Shown in pieces: positions 14,341 to 57,678 of a stretch of DNA of 64,000 nucleotides; the first letter of the stretch is position 1, and the number at the start of each line of letters is the position of its first letter. The notes under the pieces are model-generated. The model was not told the origin of the DNA. It searched no databases and worked only from the letters and a program-made list of their open reading frames with translations. The stretch is from Apostichopus japonicus (taxonomy: Eukaryota; Echinodermata; Holothuroidea; Aspidochirotida; Stichopodidae). A program made the position numbers and the translations under genes. The stretch spans positions 36,634,898-36,698,897 of the forward strand of contig NC_092577.1 of assembly GCF_037975245.1 (NCBI RefSeq). The letters run 5' to 3'.

Positions 14341-14509
14341 TAATGCACAATCATTATCCAGCAGATTTATCAAAACGAGAGCCTAAGTGATATTGTTCAA
14401 TGCTTGGACGTTATTGCATGTGCCATTAATGCATGGTAGGCCTAGGGGATGGTTTATTATTTTGATTGTTTGTCCGGCTGTAAGCTTCAGTTGAGCTTTT
14501 ATGACAGTG

Positions 14510-14752
14510 CCTGCTACATGCCTGCTACATGCCTGCTACATGCCTGCTACATGCCTGCTACATGCCTGCTACATGCCTGCTACATGCCTGCTACATGCCT
14601 GCTACATGCCTGCTACATGCCTGCTACATGCCTGCTACATGCCTGCTACATGCCTGCTACATGCCTGCTACATGCCTGCTACATGCCTGCTACATGCCTG
14701 CTACATGCCTGCTACATGCCTGCTACATGCCTGCTACATGCCTGCTACATGC
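14510..14752. repeat. 11-bp minisatellite (CCTGCTACATG)n
   Basis: About 22 almost perfect copies of CCTGCTACATG in tandem. Because 11 is not a multiple of three and the unit has no stop in any plus-strand phase, all three plus frames stay open through it; those frames are not genes. Confidence 0.97.
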
Positions 14753-15369
14753 CCTGGAAAGATGCTGTCGCTTTATACAATTGTGTTCAAATAACTGCCA
14801 CATTGCAAATTTCCCCTTAGGCTAAAATTTCGTAAATGATTTGCGCAAGTTAAAGTGTTAAATAGGCTTACATATCAATGAGTTCGGAAGTCATTTAGAG
14901 GTAACTTTCTAAAATTGTAAAAACATTCCTACAGAATTTGGCCATGGACATGCGGCCATTAATTGGAATGCACTTTAATATATATATACTTCAATATCTT
15001 TTTTTTTCATTCCTTGAGGGTCCAAAGTGCAATTTGAAATGCTACCGGTTGACACTAAACGTACAATACATAACATACGAGATAGGGGTGAGTCACACGC
15101 CCCTTACGAAATCATTGATCCGTCACTGGCTAACCTGTGTAGGCCTATGTAATAGGGATCAGCGCTGTAATGATGTCACTGTTCCCATTTCTCTTCCTGG
15201 TGTCTTGGCGTTTAACTTTTACTCCCTCCTTTTCTCCTTTTTCTCTTTTTCTTCTCCCTTCCTTCCTCTCCTCCTCCTCCTACTGCTCCTCCTCCTCCTC
15301 TTTTTTTCCTCTCTTTTTTTCTCTCCTCTTTTACTTACCTGGGGGGCGCGCGCCCCCAACGCCCCCCCT

Positions 15370-26000: not shown

Positions 26001-29000
26001 GGGGCTGGCGCCCCCCAGCCCCCTGGTTCCTACGCCCTTGGTTGTGAGGTTATTGGTGACGTGAGGTTATTGGTGAGGTGAGGTGTGGTGAAGTGTTGTG
26101 AGGTGTGGTGAATGTGGTGAGGTGAGTTGTGGTGAGGTTATTGGTAAGGTGAAGTTATTGGTGAGGTGTGGTGTGGTGTGGTGAGGTGAGGTGTGGTGGT
26201 GTGAGGTCTGGTGAGGGGAGGTGTGGTGTGGTGCGGTTATTGGTGAGGTGAGGTGTGGAGAGTTGTGGTGAGGTGTGGTGAGGTAAGGTGTGTTGAGATG
26301 AGGTGAGGTGTGGTGTGATGAGGTGTGGTTATAGGTGAGGTGAGTTGTGGTTAGGTGAGTTGAGGTGTGGTGAGGTTATTGATGATACTCCCAATACCTG
26401 ATGGTCTGTTTCTTCAATGTTTCTAAGAGTCTCCCTAAGGAAAGAAAGATTGAAAACAGTGTGAATCACACTCACCTCTAAAAGCAATGCACAATCTTCC
26501 ACTGTTTTAGTCAAGGTTCCTACATGGTCAATAGATGGTTCAAGTCCTACAACCCCAGTGTAAGGAACCAAACCAAAGGTGGGTTTAAGACCGACTACCC
26601 CACACCAAGCGGCCGGAAGACGGACTGATCCACCCTGATCCGAACCGATGGCTAATCTGACATCACCAGATGCAACCTAATGTATAAAGAATCAAAGATT
26701 ATACCATCATAAAGAACGTTGGTGCTTGCTGTATATCTTAGTATGTTTGTAGCAAGTCTAAGCAAGTCAAAAAGAGACAAATTCTGGTTTCCTGGGAAAC
26801 CTACAAAACAACTTTCCAAAGAGAGATGTAGATTTATTGGAACGGAACCCTTGGGTGTCATACTTTCAAATTATATCAGAAAGCCATGATTTCTGGCAAA
26901 GGCCAAAAGGCACAGAGAAGATTACTTAACATTCCGTCGTTCCCTCGACCTTAGGAAATATGATTGGTAGGTAACATAAATGTCAAACTTCCCAGGAAAA
27001 GAAAAAATATTGAAACGAAACAAGACAAAGGACTGAAAATACTTTGAACTACTGAGATTTGTTAAATTGGTCATTGTCAATCGAATTGATCATAAATGTT
27101 CTCGAAACTTGCTTTGATGTAATGTACAAATCATTGTAGTTAAAATTGGAATTTTCATAGGTGAAACATGGTGGGAAAAATGCCCAAAACTTCATTTTCA
27201 GAAGTGGCAACATTATTTTAGGTCTGGCATTTTCCGTTGATGACTGCCATGAAACTTATGAACAGTCCTGTTGATTGAATTTATTATGTATTTATGAATA
27301 ACATAGTTTTTGTTAATTTCTTTACGCCAGCTACCATGCATCCTGGCCAATCTGCACGTTATGTCCAAAATATATACAGCATATGGAAATCAAACTGAAC
27401 ACAAGTGGCGAAGTGAGCTTATGTAATATATAATGATAAGAAATCATAATAATGAATGAAACTCCCTCAGTTAAATACTTTTAGCAGGTTTCATTTCCAA
27501 ATCCCAGCACTCTCTCAGATTGTAAGTGTGGACAATTGGCCTACCTACAATTTCTGCAACACCTGATTATCACACTTAAATTTATGCCAAGGATGAAAGA
27601 ACACATTTCCTTCGCATATATCTCTCAACATGTCCTACTGTATGTGTATTTGCGAGAGAAACCAGCTTCTGTCACGGTAACAATTTGTACAAGCTTATGC
27701 ATCTTTCTACAATTTGATTGGGGTATTGATTTTACTGCTAAGGAAAATAGAAAACGTGAATGTTTGCAGACATTGGTTTAGGCTGTTACTATGGCAACCA
27801 AATATATGTTTTATTAATATACAATATATATTAATATTGTGAAGCAAAATGGACAACTGACAACTACGTATTCAAGGACTTGCAATTTACTCTAAATTAA
27901 CATTTAAGCAGTTTTTGCAGTTTGGTCACAAACTTTGTCAAACCTACCCAAAGTTACTCAAGATATTAAAGATAGTTTAAGAATGTAATAAGACAGGAAG
28001 CTTCATTTGACTCTTAATATTTTGCTGACCATGCACTTTTTCATAATAATGTTAATAACATGTGTAAAAATGAAATTAAAAGATTTAAAAAGATTCACTG
28101 TTTATTTCATTTCAATATATGAAATGATAACGATCACCTTTATTGTTATCAAATTTTAGCATTGGAGTCACTCCCAAGGAAGTATGTTTAGCAAAACATA
28201 ATAGCAGGGAACTTTCAATCAGTCATTAGTTATCAAAAATAATAAGAAAAAAGTTTGTTTTTGCCTCAAAAATGTTAGTGAATGTAAATTGCCTTGGTAG
28301 TAAGTAGAGAGTGTAGCAACACAACATTAGGTATTTGTATCTGTTCTTTTACCATTACCTTTTGTTTTCTCTATTTTGCGCCTTGAGTACCCCGCAGGAG
28401 GGATATGTGTGCATTATGAATCGTTATATTTATTATTATTATTATTTTGAGATACTGACCTACATTACAACAGGGCTTTGTAATATATGAACTTTTACCA
28501 GAGTTGCACTGCCACTGCTTGAACCACCAGCACTATGAAGAGGATTATGAAAGTTTAGGGTAGGTCCACTATGACTGGTGAAACTGGACCCTGAGACGCA
28601 AAGATTTTCACATGATGTCTTGCCTATGATGTGGCCACCTTTGACATGAAAGGAGAAAAAAGGAGAAAAAATCTGAACTGGGAAAAAACTCCTTCTTGAA
28701 TACCAAAATTCAAGAAAATTTTTTTCTCATCATGTACTGTTCAACATAACATGGTTCTGTGTAAAATGTTACTCAGAGAGTTCACATAATTTGGGTGTCA
28801 GTTTGTTATACTGTACAGTTGTTTTATAATACATGATACTGCAATTACTTGTGTGTAGTTAACAAAAACTCAATTCCTCATTGAATTCTATTAAAGTCTC
28901 AATACGTGTTTGAACATTGAGGAATTTCAGAAAACAAGCTTCCGAAGAAGATTCATTGTTTCTTACTCTAAATGCACTCCGACCAGGTTGGTTTAATGGA

Positions 29001-33167: not shown

Positions 33168-45313
<12,146 letters not shown>

Positions 45314-45344: not shown

Positions 45345-47145
45345 GTAGAAGCTAAGTTGTGAGTTAATGTATAGTGGCTGTTCACATACATCAAGCTGAT
45401 ACAGCTAAGTGGTGAGTCAATGCATAGTGGCTGTTCACATACATCAAGCTGATACAGCGAAGTTGTGAGTTAGTGCATAGTGACTGTTCACATACATCAA
45501 GCTGATACAGCTAAGTGGTGAGTCAATGCATAGTGGCTGTTCACATACATCAAGCTGATACAGCTAAGTGGTGAGTCAATGCATAGTGGCTGTTCACATA
45601 CATCAAGCTGATACAGCGAAGTTGTGAGTTAGTGCATAGTGACTGTTCACATACATCAAGCTGATACAGCTAAGTGGTGAGTCAATGCATAGTGGCTGTT
45701 CACATACATCAAGCTGATACAGCGAAGTTGTGAGTTAGTGCATAGTGACTGTTCACATACATCAAGCTGATACAGCTAAGTGGTGAGTCAATGCATAGTG
45801 GCTGTTCACATACATCAAGCTGATACAGCGAAGTTGTGAGTTAGTGCATAGTGACTGTTCACATACATCAGGCTGATACAGCTAAGTGGTGAGTCAATGC
45901 ATAGTGGCTGTTCACATACATCAAGCTGATACAGCTAAGTTGTGAGTTAGTGCATAGTGACTGTTCACATACATCAGGCTGATACAGCTAAGTTGTGAGT
46001 TAGTGCATAGTGGCTGTTCACATACATCAAGCTGATACAGCTAAGTTGTGAGTTAGTGCATAGTGACTGTTCACATACATCAGGCTGATACAGCTAAGTG
46101 GTGAGTCAATGCATAGTGGCTGTTCACATACATCAAGCTGATACAGCGAAGTTGTGAGTTAGTGCATAGTGACTGTTCACATACATCAAGCTGATACAGC
46201 TAAGTGGTGAGTCAATGCATAGTGGCTGTTCACATACATCAAGCTGATACAGCGAAGTTGTGAGTTAGTGCATAGTGACTGTTCACATACATCAAGCTGA
46301 TACAGCTAAGTGGTGAGTCAATGCATAGTGGCTGTTCACATACATCAAGCTGATACAGCGAAGTTGTGAGTTAGTGCATAGTGACTGTTCACATACATCA
46401 GGCTGATACAGCTAAGTGGTGAGTCAATGCATAGTGGCTGTTCACATACATCAAGCTGATACAGCTAAGTTGTGAGTTAGTGCATAGTGACTGTTCACAT
46501 ACATCAGGCTGATACAGCTAAGTTGTGAGTTAGTGCATAGTGGCTGTTCACATACATCAAGCTGATACAGCTAAGTTGTGAGTTAGTGCATAGTGACTGT
46601 TCACATACATCAGGCTGATACAGCTAAGTGGTGAGTCAATGCATAGTGGCTGTTCACATACATCAAGCTGATACATCTAAGTTGTGAGTTAATGCATAGT
46701 GGCTCTCCACATACATCAGGCTGATACAGCTAAGTGGTGAGTCAATGCATAGTGGCTGTTCACATACATCAAGCTGATACAGCGAAGTGGTGAGTCAATG
46801 CATAGTGGCTGTTCACATACATCAAGCTGATACATCTAAGTTGTGAGTTAATGCATAGTGGCTGTTCACATACATCAAGCTGATACAGCGAAGTGGTGAG
46901 TTAATGCATAGTGGCTGTTCACATACATCAAGCTGATACATCTAAGTTGTGAGTTAATGCATAGTGGCTGTTCACATACATCAAGCTGATACAGCTAAGT
47001 TGTGAGTTAATGCATAGTGGCTGTTCACATACACAAAGCTGATACAGCTAAGAGGTGAGTCAATGCATAGTGGCTGTTCACATACATCAAGCTGATACTG
47101 CAAAGTGGTGAGTTAATGCATAGTGGCTGTTCACATACATCAAGT
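45345..47145. repeat. 53-bp satellite after the ADAT2 stop
   Basis: About 34 units of 53 bp, for example GTGAGTTAGTGCATAGTGAC, TGTTCACATACATCAAGCTG, ATACAGCGAAGTT. The 53-bp phase is exact at 45361, 45414 and 45467. Two unit types (GAGTCAATGCATAGTGGCTG and GAGTTAGTGCATAGTGACTG) alternate, making a 106-bp dimer, and a larger block recurs 530 bp apart (ten units). The array begins 32 bp past the stop, so it probably lies in the 3' untranslated region unless the mRNA ends very early. Confidence 0.97.
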
Positions 47146-49020: not shown

Positions 49021-52000
49021 TCAAAAAATGGTGTCAAAGAGGTCACTGATGCCCTCATTTTCTGCTAGTGCGAAGAGATAATCATCAACCGCTGGAGGTG
49101 AGAGAGGAACAAAGTCTTCGTGAAGAGAATGCTGGTCTTCAGTTAGCAGGAGATTTCTCTCTAAGGTAGCTAGGTCATCGTCTTCTAGCGTGTTCACTTT
49201 CATGGCCCGGTCATTTTCTGTGATTCGGAGGGAAAAGAAAATATACATAAAATGTCTTTATGTTTACATTATAAGCTTTGACGTGTGTTTTTGAAAGAAT
49301 TGCAATCTATCAAAATGAAAAGACAAAAAATTATAAAATCAGCAGTTTTCAACCCACAGGTCTTTCTTTGAGATTTAAAGGTTGGTAGCCCATTCAGGAC
49401 ACAATATTACTGTAGGCTATACCCTACTCCCCCCTTCAGGCCGCAATTCCAAGATGCAGTATTAAACCCTTTTCCCCTCCAGGCAGCCATTTCAGAGTGC
49501 AGTATTACACCCTATTCCCCTGCAGGCAGTCGTTTCAGGACGCAGTATTAAACCATGCTCCCCACCCCCTCCAGGCAGCCGTTTCAGGACAGTGTTGCAC
49601 CCTATTCCCCTCCAGGCCGCCATTGCAAGACGCAGTATTGCACCCTACTCCCTCCTTCAGGCCGCCATTCCAAGACGCATTATTACACCCTACTCCGCCC
49701 ACCAGGCCGCCATTCCAAGATGCAGTATTACACCCTACTCCCCCCTCCAGGCCGCCATTCCAAGACACAGTATTACAAACAAACTAAGTCACAGATGTTC
49801 AAGACTGACATAACATTTCTTAGATGAAAACGACACAAACTTTGCCTTAGAGCTTAATTCAAATTTATTGTATCGCAAAGATCTGGCTGTTAAAGGGTTA
49901 TGGGCTACAAATGTTGCAATGACTTAGTTTGAAGGAGATGTTGACCTTTGAATGAGAAGTTGACCTTTGCAGGAAAATTTCAAATGGTGCACCTCAGTTT
50001 TGATAAAATAAATCTTGTTAGATTTGTGGATGAAATTATTTACTATTGAGAATTTTTAAGTCTATATGACACATTGTACTGTATATAAGATATTACAGTC
50101 TTACCTTTTGGGGGAGAAGAGCCCTCTGAACTGGGAGAACTGTCACCTTCCTTTCTGCACTCCTCAGGACACAGATAGACCTCTATTTGACCTCTTGAAC
50201 TCTTGAGCCAAATTTGTATACCCTGTTGGACAGATAATTAATACAAATCCAGCATGACAAAACCATAGGTTAGCAACTTGGCATGATATTTCAATATATT
50301 AAAATCTTCTGTCACCACTCTTGGTTGATCTCATCTGGTAAAACAACAATTTTAGTCACAAATCACTCCAGTGGGAAAAGCAACCTACATATTCAGATTT
50401 CTCCAGGTAGACAACATTATTTAAACTGGTTAAATCTTGACCAGCAATGTTCTAAAGCCAACATGACTTACACTGCCAAAATCTTGACCAGCCATATTCT
50501 AAAGCCAACATGACTTACACTGCCAAAATCATAGCCAGCCATATTCTAAAGCCAACATGACTTACACTGGTAAAATCTTGACCAGCCATATTCTAAAGCC
50601 AACATGACTTACACTGGTAAAATCTTGACCAGCCATATTCTAAAGCCAACATGACCTACACAGGCAAAATCTTGACCAGCCATATTCTAAAGCCAACATG
50701 ACTTACACTGGTAAAATCTTGACCAGCCATGATCTAAAGCCAACATGACTTAAACTGGTAAAATCTTGACCAGCCATATTCTAAAGCCAACATGACTTAC
50801 ACTGGTAAAATCTTGACCAGCCATATTTTAAGCCAACATGACTTACACTGGTAAAATCTTGACCAGCCATATTCTAAAGCAACCATGACTTACACTGGTA
50901 AAATCTTGACCAGCCATATTCTAAAGCCAACATGACTTACACTGCCAAAATCTTGACCAGCCATATTCTAAAGCCAACATGACTTACACAGACAAAATCT
51001 TGACCAGCCATATTCTAAAGCCAATATGACTTACACTGGCAAAATCTTGACCAGCCATATTCTAAAAGCCAACATGACTTACACTGGTAAAATCTTGACC
51101 AGCCATATTCTTAAGCAGGGTTGTCCAACCTTTTGCAGAGGAGGGCCACATGGAATGATTATGATGAAGGAGGGGGCCGCATGAACCCTACGCTCGATTT
51201 TTTGCGCGAAGCCCAAGGCAACAAAATGTGAGCACTACGCGCGGAGCGCACTGATTTATTTCCCTTCCTGATAAAACAGATGAATAAAGTCCAGCCGGCA
51301 CCCCCCCTCCCCCTCCGCTGAGAGAGTGTCACACAAACTGACCAGTATGCAGTTTTTTTGGACCCAGAAGGTTCGAATGATTGATTATATAGCTTCAAAT
51401 TGTTATCAATAAATCTGCTCACTAAATTTCACACCGTAGAGCATCTCTGGCGGGACGGACGCAACCCTGCCGCGGGCCAGACTGTGGCCCGCAGGCCGTA
51501 GGTTGGACAACCATGTTCTAAAGCCAACATGACTTACACTGGTAAAATCTTGACCAACCATATTCTAAAGCCAACATGATTTACACGAGCAAAGTCTTGA
51601 CCAGCCATATTCTAAAGCACACACACATTGCTTCACCATCCAGGATTTTCCACTTAATGGTGTTGATTTGAGATGTGATCTCTCAGCAGTGTGTTGCTGG
51701 CTTTAAATCACTAACAACACTGCTGTTGTAATCTGACCATCAAACCTGAACATGCAGACATATAAAGTGATATAAAACAACTTACCTCTCTTGGATCTGG
51801 AACCTCTAACTTTGTCTCTGGTGGCGCCTTTATTGCAATCACTGTTTGGTCTTCAAAACTTTTAATACTTCTAATATCGTGGTAAGTCACATATGCATAC
51901 GTGAGTGTATCGTTAAGGAAACTTACTACCCAGTATGGAAGCAGACACTGACTAGTTTAGCAACAAATTCTCAATTGTAAAGGTTTTTTATCAAATTTAC

Positions 52001-55000
52001 AAAGTATTGATTGAAATATGATAACAGTTGATCAAAGAATGCAATCCTTTTGCAGTTTATCTTTCTTTCTAACTTCAAGAGAGTTACTGTACAGTAAGTT
52101 ACCAGCAGAGCACTCTATTCAGTTCTGTCAACCAGACACTAAACTTATAATATTCTTAAATATTGAATGAAAGCTTGTGTGACATTAACACCCCTTCACC
52201 ATTGCCTCAAACCATTAATCTTGCAGAATGCCATCTCCAACTCAGGAGTTCACAACATCTCAGTAAAGTTGTATGAGTTTACAATGAATCGCAAACATTC
52301 AGTGATACAATGTACAGTAGAACTAACCTGAACACAACCAATTTGTCAACACTTTCTGACTTTGTTGAAAAGTTGTGTGGCTATTTCAGCACAGTTGAAA
52401 CCATGGATAGTATCACACATTTTTAAATTATGGAAATTTGTTTAAAAAAATACAAAATACAATGCATATCAAACCAGGGAATAATTATCTGGTATCACAA
52501 AGCAACTTGATAGAAAATGGAAGAATTGTTTGTCACTGGTGTGTGAATTTCATTTAAGAAAAGGATATCTCTTATTCCCAGGATCTTCTGTAAGCATTTT
52601 AAGCTGTAACGATGCGTTTCTAATTAGCTCGTCTAATCTATTTTCTTGAAGATCTAGGTCAGCAACATCTGGAAAGAGAAATAAGCAGATATTCAGTCAT
52701 TGTTTAATTCGTGTCTTGCATTTACCATTTGCTGAAGTATTTATTGTAAGCAATCGTTTCATTGTCATTATTACTCAAAGCATCCACGATTTTAATCATT
52801 GGTGGAAAACTGCCATGCACTTCTAACATATACAGTATGTTAGAGCGTTTCTGTTCCCTTTTGAATATAGTGTTCTCATGCACAATCCCATCCCATTTAA
52901 ATTAAATAAAAAATTGTGTTAAACATACTGTACGTATATTACCTAATTTTGTTAGGACTAAACTACCCCTTTAATCCTAACTATGAAGATACAGTTTGCC
53001 TATCCAAATCCAAACTACTTGATAAGTTGATAACAAAACACCACTTCTTTAATTAATTTGATACCACAAGTTATGTTTATCTACCGAAATTCAAAACAAA
53101 AAAAAAAGACTGAAATACTTGGCTTGAGTGAAGGACACATTGACATGAACCACTAAACCTGAGATACATCGTCCAACAACTGTTTGTAATTTGTCATTAA
53201 CTTAGTATCCATTCATCTATGCAGTTGTTTATTACATTGATTAACCCTTTTTGTTTTAAAGGTTTCTTCTGACAGAAAATAAATTGGTATCTCAGTCAAA
53301 CTAACCGTCTGTCTTTAAGTCTGTTTTATTGAGAGGATTCATGATAAATTAATCACTCAATCGTAAATGAGATGTTGTATGAAGTCAATTCATATTCAAT
53401 TATATCAAATACAGCATTATTAGGTCTGCTTATTATCCCTCAAACAAGACGGCTGAGAACAACTGCTTGTAAATTTGGTTGGCAGAGATAAAACAGGTAC
53501 GGTATACCTCTAGAGAGGAAGATAATTGAATATTGGGACGAGGGGTAATAATACAAGCTGGCCCATTAACGCTAAACAGATGGATATCATGCAATCTTCT
53601 GAGGAGAGTATGTTTATACTGTTGGCTTGATTAACAACAAATAATAAAATAACTTTTAACTTACATCGTTAGTTTTACTAATTTAACAATTATTTAAAGA
53701 CACTGGGTCTGTTTGATTGGCTGTCATGGAGGTATAAATATTGCTTAAGTTTAAGACAACCCAGTTTATCAAGGGAGGTCTCTGCTAAAAGGTGAATTAC
53801 CTAAGTTACACTACTGGTACAAGTAAGCTGATCAATGCAAAGTCTGTGAGAATTTGGCAGAAAAACATTTTGAAAATGAAAGGCCATCATCCAGGGCTAA
53901 ATGCATGTAGGAGAAGATATAAGTACCTGAATGCAGATTGACAGCTTCTGCACTGATGGAGTTGCCAGAGAAGTCTTGGGCCGACACACAACTACTTGCA
54001 CCTCTGCAAGAAAACAGCAAAAACATTGCATTCAGTTCTGATCCAACTTTTTGCTGAATTGTGGTAAGCACATGAGGCTCTTTGATATCAATTTTAGACT
54101 TTAGTCATACAGTATATGATGGAACATGATATCTCATATGTGGAGACCATATTATTATTTTTTATTCCATAAAAAAGTTGCTACTACTCACTTCCATTCA
54201 ATGTTGTTTTTATGTCGTTTAGAGATGAGCTTGATTCCTTCTAATACGTTTGTTATGTCGTAGATTCTCCTCTTTTGAACACTGAGTTGCTCGGCTGCCT
54301 GGTTCAAGTCTAACACACCGTCAGGTGCTGCTCGTAGTAAGCTGACGAAGCGTTTTGTTAACAGACCTAGCGACGTCTCATACCTGGATTTCTCTAATGG
54401 TGATTTAGCGGCTGGTGGTGTGAAAGTAAAATTACATTATTTTAGGATGAAAAGTAGCATATTTGACAAAATTTAAATATACTAAATACCTTAATGTGTC
54501 CATATGATAATTGTGAACAATAACTAACTGTACAGTGCAGAGGTTAATGCAGGTAACAAAAGTAGTTTCCAAATTTTGTGAAGTAGTTTTGAAATGCTCT
54601 GAGGTTTGTCTTTAATATGTGGTTCCTGCGTACATCTTTGGAGTTCTATTACAGTTTCATCATTTTCATAGTATGATTCTACAGGATACACTATTCCATC
54701 AAGTGTCCATAAGGGATTCTCCCTTACAAAGCTTGTTGCTACTTTTTGTCACAGTATCACTGTACCCAAGGCTTTAGCTAGTTGTTAGCTAGACATCCTA
54801 ACAAATCAACATTATTTTGTAATGTACTTAAAAGACAATTCTGAAATGGGAGGCAGAATTATCTTCTTTGAAAAAATTACAACCAGCCAACATTTTGCAT
54901 AAGTAGGAAACCTCTACCCTTATAAACTGTACTCCCTGTATGCCACAGTTGCTATGCAAAAGATCCACAATTTTCCGAGGGACCACCAATCCCTGTGACC

Positions 55001-57678
55001 TAGTTTTTGATAGATGTAGTGAAGATCCCAGTGGGCCCAGTCTAATACTTGACCCCAGATACCAAACACCGATGCTTTCTGCTAACGACTGGTGCTCGTT
55101 TAGATAAGAGCAACATAATTTTTCTGAGATTGGTTACATTTTTTGAGGCTGGACAGTACTTTTCGTGGACTGCCGCTCACTGTCTACTGCCAGGTGGGAA
55201 AAACGCTACATGTTCATTTTTCTCGACTGACACAACTTAAAACTGTCAAAATCATGATCAGTACAACTTTAAGGTGGTCAAGTTTGATAATGTTGTGATT
55301 AGCTTGATATCAGCCTGATGCTGATTGGGTACATTCCTCTGTTAATCAGACAAAATTAAGCTACCTTTAGGACTATTTCGTACAACTTTCTTTCTCTGCT
55401 TTGGAGGACTTGGCGTTTTAAAGTCCAAAACGTTTTCACTATTTCTGCCCCTGGAGGGATTTACATCCATGTGGAGTTTCCGTTTGGCCTGAAAATGAAA
55501 AGATGACAAATAGATTCATTGGTCAAAGCAATACCGACATGTCAAAGAGCTATGGTCTTCAGGTACTAACACATGTGTTCAATGGTTTTTTTGTGCTGGA
55601 ACTTGCATTTTTTTTTCTAATAAATCGTGTAGACAGTTTAAAATAAATTAGTAAGGCAAAATACATGTTTGTAGTTTTGTGGAAGGAAAAGGAAGTTTCA
55701 TAAATGATAAATAGGTAGTGAGGTTTACCTACAGTGTGTCCATACCAATGCAGGGATGAAGATAACAGAATAACCAGGTAAAAATTTTGTTTAGCAGCTT
55801 TTGAGGCTCTGAATTTATTTGCTTATAAATACTGTACTGTCTGATACTGCTCCAACTCCCATGGTGAAGTTGATTTTGTAGTTGATTCTGTGCCTCCTAG
55901 ACCCTGTCACCACTGCTACTGCACCTCCAGAACAGAGACTCAGAGTATAAAGTACTGTATGTCATATAATTTAGTAATGAACAACTGTTGTACGGTCTAG
56001 CGACAAACTCCTTTCGCGTTCCATACGCATATGTTGCCATAGTAGCACCATACCATGCATGTGATACTTGATCTTTTACGAAGCACTGTTATGGGTATAA
56101 TGGTATAATAATGACTCAGATCGTATCTCGAAAAGGTTGGGGGTTCGTGGACAACTGAAATCCACAGGGGGTTAGTGGGGGATAAAGTTAGGGAAACCCT
56201 AGTTTATAGGCTCTATCCACCCAAGAGTGCCAGCTCAGTGGACTGTCATTTTTATGAAAACTCCCACCAAACTATAATTGAGTCGATCTCAAAAGGACTA
56301 ACTGCTACAGTACACTGAGAGCTAACTTCCTCGTTTCAAGTGTTTTCTATACGTACATTTGTCCAGGGTATTCTTACCTAGTTATACCTAGAGAATGTAA
56401 CAAATACACTGCTGGACTGTGTAGCCTACAGAAGGAAGTTAGTAAGCTATGAACAGAAGGCCTACGTGCTTTAATGATAATAAAAAACACAGTGGTGCAA
56501 TGAATTTGAAAACATACAGACGATTCCCAGGTTAGCCTAAATATTCCTAGCCCAACATCAACTCCAGCAAGTTCCAATGTGGTCAGTAGTACTAGGCTAG
56601 AAGTAGAAGATACATTATTGGCAATTCTGAAGTAAGCTTATCAAGGCCATGACACATGCAGTAGGCCAAGGCCAAGTACTGTACAGTAGGCCAAGGAGTA
56701 GGAGCTGTGGGGCCATACTCCATAGCCACCCCAGTAATCCATGACAGGATGAGGTCACGCAGGCATGGGTGCTATCATACATATTTTAAAGCTGAAAACA
56801 TCACTGAAAGTTAGTCAGACCCCCGCCTCCAACCTCCCCCCCCCTGACCCATTTCCAACTTGTCAGGGTCTCTGACCTGACTGAACCAAGGCCTACTAGT
56901 ACTGGCTGCAATATTTGTGTTATTCTTAGGCGCAATATATATTTTAAGACCCGTAACTGTACTGTAGCACAACTTTGGGCTAACAATAATAACAAGAACC
57001 AGGACTTATCCTAGCAGAATATCAGAGATCATTTTTTGCCCTTGTGGCTATAGCCTAGGCCAGTTTTTATTATTTAAACAATAATGGGCAAACTCATTTG
57101 GTGTAGAGCTTAACTCCTTAAGCCTAAGGCTCTCAAAAAATAAATTGAAGTAGCCTAGCCTTGGCCAGGTAGGCCAATGTCCGTTTTGAAATTATTCTCC
57201 CCCTCCCCCACACCCCATTGTCATCACAATTTGATATGACATTTCCCATGTCAGTACAGTACTAGGAGTAGGACTTCAGCCAGAACATGACTAGGTCAAG
57301 GGTAGGCCTAGCCTAGTTAGGGAACTCAGTGTAGGCCTAGGCCCTAGGGCCTAGCCTAAGTAACGTTAGGCCAAAGGGCCCTGGCCTGTCTTCGGCTAAA
57401 ACCATGGGAACACAAAAGGAAATGTTTAAAGTTACCGGTGGTCTTCCAAGAAGAGTTCTGCTTGTTTTTGTTTGAACATTTTCAGGAGTGTAACCAACAA
57501 CATCAATAACATCGAAATCTTGTTCTTGGGGCTGTCCGCCTGCGTATATTCTGGTCATGGCAGTCGGCAATGGAGAAGAAGCTCTTTGTGAAAGATCGAC
57601 GTCAAATATGGACGCTGACTGGGCCAAAGCGAACTGACTTTCCAAAGTAAAGCTGCCATGCTGAAATTCTTTTTCCAT
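49021..57678 (-). CDS. E2F: E2F transcription factor, E2F1/2/3 subfamily (8 exons, 397 aa)
   Basis: Exons: 57678-57436, 55488-55365, 54411-54192, 54003-53927, 52668-52569, 51900-51786, 50222-50105, 49217-49021; total 1194 nt. It binds TTTSSCGC sites with a DP partner and drives G1/S genes in the nucleus. Domains: a cyclin A/CDK2 RxL motif, AKRKL (82-86); winged-helix DNA-binding domain, about 131-196, with [23 protein letters not shown] and the [13 protein letters not shown] element; leucine-rich and marked-box dimer regions, about 222-325 ([45 protein letters not shown]); and a C-terminal pocket-protein (RB) binding motif, [17 protein letters not shown] (378-394). RxL plus RB motif place it with activator E2Fs. 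Start: M at 57678; an in-frame ATG 69 nt upstream is less likely. Intron 5 is U12-type AT-AC. Introns 6 and 7 hold tandem arrays. Confidence 0.95.
49395..49785. repeat. 45-bp tandem repeat in E2F intron 7
   Basis: About eight imperfect units: CAGGCCGCCATTCCAAGACG, CAGTATTACACCCTACTCCC, CCCTC. It lies between the exons ending at 50105 and starting at 49217. All three plus-strand frames are partly open, which is an artefact. Confidence 0.93.
50440..51622. repeat. 47-bp tandem repeat in E2F intron 6
   Basis: About 16 units of AAATCTTGACCAGCCATATT, CTAAAGCCAACATGACTTAC, ACTGGTA. Variants change CTGGTA to CTGCCA or CAGACA. The array is split at 51116-51515 by a hAT-like element and resumes for two more units. 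Confidence 0.96.
51116..51515. mobile_element. hAT-like MITE (400 bp) inside the 47-bp array
   Basis: Left end CAGGGTTGTCCAACCT; right end read inward CATGGTTGTCCAACCT: a 16-bp inverted repeat with one mismatch. The flanks TTCTTAAG (51108-51115) and TTCTAAAG (51516-51523) form an 8-bp duplication with one change, and in the undisturbed array this site is a single TTCTAAAG. GGCCCGC and GGGCC words near the ends are common in hAT non-autonomous elements. No transposase is encoded. Confidence 0.78.
51901..52568 (-). other. U12-type AT-AC intron in E2F
   Basis: The exon ends AATAAGAG and the intron starts ATATCCTTTTC, matching the minor-spliceosome donor ATATCCTT. Near the 3' end is TTCCTTAAC (51920-51912), the U12 branch-site consensus, and the intron ends in AC at 51902-51901, about 12 nt after the branch adenosine. 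There is no usable GT at the donor or AG near the acceptor. The join restores the conserved reading [11 protein letters not shown]. Length 668 bp. E2F genes are established hosts of minor introns in vertebrates. Confidence 0.93.

Follow-up and report, generated by a model that had tools for sequence, protein, structure and literature searches.

Introduction

Minor (U12-type) introns are already on record in E2F genes, with those of E2f1, E2f2, E2f3, E2f5 and E2f6 held in U12DB and that of E2f4 added later (PMC6717393), and the share of E2F genes that contain a minor intron has been given as 75% (PMC6865273). An antisense oligonucleotide to U12 disturbed minor-intron splicing of human E2F1-3 (PMC12332006), Arabidopsis E2FB has been called a U12 intron-containing gene (PMC5853960), and the AT-AC subclass is reported to make up 24% of minor introns (PMC8280824). 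Here we describe an AT-AC intron of the U12 type in an E2F1-3-like gene of the holothuroid Apostichopus japonicus, located in a 64-kb stretch of DNA (C17:36634898-36698897, hereafter the window), and its counterpart in an E2F4/5-like paralog on contig C3. A first-pass annotation of the window had reported the intron and had stated that minor introns are known in vertebrate E2F genes, which agrees with those in print for mammalian E2F1-6 (PMC6717393). Since the latter were already published, the intron is less unusual than that annotation implied.

Like the window gene, mammalian E2F1-6 are E2F genes with a minor intron (PMC6717393). For the minor introns of vertebrate E2F genes, the literature passages searched gave neither codon nor subtype, whereas both were read directly for the window and C3 introns, and the same passages contained no description of an AT-AC position shared by two E2F types. 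The sole positional hint for vertebrates is a forward primer for the mouse E2f1 U12 intron (PMC12332006), which translates to QLQESE; human E2F1 has these residues shortly before the junction described below, in the stretch aligning with exon E. Arabidopsis E2FB is also an E2F gene with a U12 intron but belongs to a plant, and the likeness comes without its position or subtype (PMC5853960). No mention of E2F occurs in the main text of PMC2831892 or PMC2426677. A literature search pairing E2F with ATATCCTT found nothing. The human E2F1 minor intron has reportedly been described as AT-AC.

Results

The E2F1-3-like Gene

Read from the minus strand (window 57678-49021), the gene has eight exons and seven introns and specifies 397 amino acids with no internal stop; the exons were read from the frame and splice signals, and the gene structure is a model (Table 1). 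Its fifth intron has AT-AC ends, at exactly the coordinates first reported, and the other six of the seven introns are GT-AG. The identification of the gene as an E2F held, with an E2F_TDP winged-helix DNA-binding domain (PF02319; 1.2e-27) and an E2F_CC-MB domain (residues 220-312; 1.5e-34) matched in Pfam and human E2F1 (2aze_B) aligned ungapped across the junction. We call the gene E2F1-3-like because, among solved structures, its CC-MB region was closest to human E2F1 (2aze_B; 79.9 bits) compared to E2F5 (5tuv_B; 41 bits) and E2F4 (5tuu_B; 39.7 bits), a ranking by bit scores and not a tree. The top structure match overall was the DNA-binding domain of E2F4 (1cf7_A; 85.5 bits), and none of the seven structure matches was an E2F1-3 DNA-binding domain. 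A 17-residue stretch of exon H resembles the RB-binding, transactivating C-terminus and may represent it. A search of viral contigs with a 192-residue piece returned no relatives and four pattern stretches.

Splice Signals and Minor-Spliceosome RNAs

The consensus of the U12-type donor is RTATCCTTT and that of the U12-type branch site, which is found near the 3′ end, is TTCCTTAAC. The window intron starts ATATCCTTTTCT and ends TTCCTTAACGATACACTCAC, with CTCAC as its last letters and a gap of 11 nucleotides (nt) between TTCCTTAAC and the intron end. Its AT-AC ends and U12-type signals were thus as first annotated, with ATATCCTTTTC and TTCCTTAAC placed at the two borders and a join that restores the frame (AAT AAG AG/G TAT GCA, the slash marking the junction, read as NKR-YAYV). 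A U12-type intron of maize has been printed with GTATCCTTTT. Compared to the AT-AC subclass of U12-type introns, with its AT and AC ends, U12-type donor and branch site, nothing essential differs, and intron 52568-51901 is, judged from its sequence, a strong example of that subclass.

The genome (671.6 Mb in 35 contigs) was searched for the small nuclear RNAs (snRNAs) of the minor spliceosome, scoring the best candidates (40-49 per search), so that gene counts are lower bounds. At least one gene was found for each of U12 (C17; 115.9 bits), U6atac (C21; 104.2 bits), U11 (C14; 88.7 bits) and U4atac (C14; 72.2 bits), all above the Rfam gathering score and with the whole model covered. Counted without a shuffled control, nine contiguous pairs are possible between the donor and the genome's own U6atac, seven (one of them G-U) between the donor and its U11, and eight between the branch site and its U12, with one A bulged. 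The U6atac gene on C21 has one A more than the Rfam consensus in the donor-pairing stretch (AGAaAAGGAGAG), and this extra A lengthens the pairing with the donor of the window intron to nine. Within the 64-kb window an Rfam scan gave no matches, and no tRNAs were found.

Alternative Joins Between Exons E and F

None of the 1520 GT-AG pairs enumerated between exons E and F retained both coding flanks (six were in frame and open), in line with the earlier claim that no GT-AG alternative exists. Both flanks were likewise lost in all 679 GC-AG pairs (28 in frame and open), and GT-AG and GC-AG joins were rejected on these counts. Among 2374 AT-AG pairs, 62 were in frame and open and five kept both flanks, each with at least seven extra residues; the AT-AG joins 21, 25 and 51 nt upstream were rejected for these added residues and for an intron that would end before the branch site. 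AT-AC ends gave 2092 pairs, with 44 in frame and open, seven retaining both flanks and one producing the reference E2F sequence. A second enumeration with slightly different bounds again gave six open GT-AG and 28 open GC-AG joins, with 66 compared to 62 for AT-AG. The claim that only AT-AC ends work needs narrowing: the exact sequence comes from one AT-AC pair, but an AC 6 nt further upstream is also in frame.

The E2F4/5-like Paralog

A profile search of the genome for E2F_CC-MB gave three matches, comprising one exon of the window gene and two exons of a single gene on C3. The corresponding search for E2F_TDP gave five, on C17, C3, C1 (two, close together) and C10; of these, the two on C1 may belong to an E2F7/8-like gene and that on C10 to a DP gene. 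The CC-MB region of the C3 gene (Pfam E2F_CC-MB; 4e-25) was much closer to E2F5 (2.6e-28) and E2F4 (3e-27) than to E2F1 (9e-6). Its intron starts ATATCCTTTG and ends TTCTTTAACTTGATGCTTTTCTAC, with 15 nt from the branch motif to the end, and the exons join as GAG AAC AGT AG/A TTA GCG TAT (ENSR-LAYV). None of 1500 GT-AG joins retained both flanks (24 in frame and open), compared to two of 2432 AT-AC joins, one of them exactly.

The junction arginines of the window and C3 genes fall in one alignment column and the intron phase is equal, so that in each of the two genes where a CC-MB domain was found, one homologous codon is interrupted in the same phase by an AT-AC U12-type intron. The same codon, phase and subtype in both genes suggest that the intron, together with its AT-AC subtype, was present before the E2F1-3 and E2F4/5 types separated, with descent as the simplest reading. 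This finding, along with the four minor snRNAs encoded in the genome, favours the ancient position that the first-pass annotation had proposed. AT-AC minor introns are reported to convert to U2-type introns more rarely than GT-AG minor introns do (PMC2831892).

Table 1. Positions of the features described. Window coordinates are given except for the intron on C3.
Feature	Position	Strand	Basis
AT-AC U12-type intron, 668 nt, phase 2	51901..52568	minus	signals, gene model, enumeration of joins
5′ splice site ATATCCTTTTC	52558..52568	minus	possible pairing with the genome's U11 and U6atac
Branch site TTCCTTAAC	51912..51920	minus	possible pairing with the genome's U12
Terminal AC, 3′ splice site	51901..51902	minus	enumeration; ungapped join against 2aze_B
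AT-AC U12-type intron of E2F4/5-like paralog, 720 nt	C3:29351438-29352157	minus	
Coding exon A (model; start codon putative)	57436..57678	minus	
Coding exon B, KRKL stretch	55365..55488	minus	
Coding exon C, DNA-binding domain	54192..54411	minus	model, Pfam, structure alignment
Coding exon D	53927..54003	minus	
Coding exon E, first part of CC-MB, ends NKR	52569..52668	minus	model, Pfam, structure alignment
Coding exon F, CC-MB from YAYVTYHD	51786..51900	minus	model, Pfam, structure alignment
Coding exon G, end of CC-MB	50105..50222	minus	model, structure alignment
Coding exon H, last exon, with stop codon	49021..49217	minus	model
Other donor-like U12 motifs	36895, 58425, 13380, 5920		
Other branch-like U12 motif	11838		
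Minisatellite, 60-bp x61.8	40038-43798		
Minisatellite, 53-bp x33.9	45350-47144		
Minisatellite, 47-bp x15	50412-51116		
Minisatellite, 28-bp x12.9	44073-44432		
Minisatellite, 11-bp x22.4, 100% match	14508-14753		

Other Features of the Window

The E2F intron that follows the AT-AC one contains a stretch of about 400 bp (51116-51515) with 16-nt inverted ends (94% complementary), flanked by two blocks of a 47-bp minisatellite; its sequence has the look of a non-autonomous DNA transposon. On the minus strand, 26332-26676 is part of an amidase gene (PF01425; 2.3e-27). A perfect U12-type donor motif (ATATCCTTTT; 36886-36895, minus strand) stands without an evident exon border and is probably a chance occurrence.

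Discussion

Taken jointly, a genuine AT-AC intron of the U12 type, removed by the minor spliceosome from the E2F1-3-like gene and inherited from an ancestral E2F, is very probably what lies at 52568-51901. What the sequences show directly is the splice signals, a join that preserves the frame, genes for the snRNAs, and a position and subtype shared with the paralog. From these we infer that the intron is spliced in vivo and that it was inherited and did not arise in parallel. In such splicing U11 and then U6atac would pair with the donor ATATCCTTTTC, U12 would pair with TTCCTTAAC around a bulged branch adenosine, and joining at the AC 11 nt past the branch site would restore the CC-MB codon at NKR-YAYV. 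In the ancestral E2F gene this codon would already have been interrupted by an AT-AC intron, ahead of the divergence of the E2F1-3 and E2F4/5 types.

Several observations weigh against this account. The donor or branch motif taken alone occurs at chance frequency in the window, with two occurrences of RTATCCTTT compared to a shuffle mean of 1.77 and two of TTCCTTAAC compared to 0.83, as a pseudogene or a chance pair of motifs with nothing spliced at 52568-51901 would allow; on inspection, no clear exon border was seen at three of the other donor-like motifs (36895, 58425 and 13380) or at the branch-like motif. The telling point is joint placement: the donor and branch motifs mark the two ends of a single intron, normally spaced and exactly where the reading frame demands the junction. 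With the donor fixed at one given exon border and the branch site free to fall at about 14 positions ahead of the matching one, arithmetic from the window motif rates puts the chance at about 1e-9 for one given intron and about 1e-8 for seven. With 397 open codons over eight exons and intact domains as well, a chance pair or a pseudogene is scarcely credible. Equally hard to credit is removal by the major spliceosome, as a U2-type AT-AC intron: such introns occur in sodium channel genes, but those have G at +5 (PMC2831892) whereas the window intron has C there, along with complete donor and branch sites of the U12 type. The exact 3′ end is left unproven by a second in-frame AC after the branch site, 6 nt upstream of the terminal one (both within 51901-51908, minus strand). 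A U12-type intron ending mainly at this upstream AC would be in frame and open and would add Leu-Thr (NKR-LT-YAYV), but it would end only 5 nt past the branch site and insert two residues that have no counterpart in the aligned human E2F1, E2F5 and E2F4. The chains of all three have no gap at NKR-YAYV, which favours the downstream AC, and the upstream one is quite improbable as the main 3′ end.

The inheritance of the intron has to be weighed against a history in which each E2F gene acquired its matching intron independently, or in which GT-AG minor introns of the two genes turned independently into AT-AC ones. Subtype switching is on record, as 36 of nearly one thousand U12DB clusters contain both subtypes (PMC2831892), and the shared AT-AC subtype is for this reason not proof of descent. 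The paralog's branch site TTCTTTAAC also differs from TTCCTTAAC at one place. Separate origin would, however, require several coincidences for codon, phase and subtype to be equal in both genes, and we regard it as unlikely, although less so than the alternatives for the window intron itself. Descent from an ancestral E2F remains the reading we prefer.

Retention of the window intron would continue the frame as NKRYPFLK to a stop at codon 261, inside the CC-MB domain, with loss of the C-terminal part of the E2F protein. This truncation makes a control role plausible. Activation of p38 MAPK in human cells increased both the mRNA and the minor-intron splicing of E2F2, as well as E2F6 expression (PMC3728624). 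When the two kinds of splice site competed directly, minor AT-AC sites were outcompeted by GT-AG sites (PMC8280824). It is a tentative and rather doubtful proposal that the ancestral AT-AC intron was kept, subtype included, in both E2F types because slow splicing acts as a shared brake on E2F output; were it true, the retained intron would truncate E2F within CC-MB and remove its C-terminus.

The E2F AT-AC intron reveals no new mechanism. As the first-pass annotation had proposed, it would tie the G1/S control exerted by E2F to the minor spliceosome, and it offers a simple site for asking if, outside mammals, the splicing of a minor intron sets a limit on E2F output.

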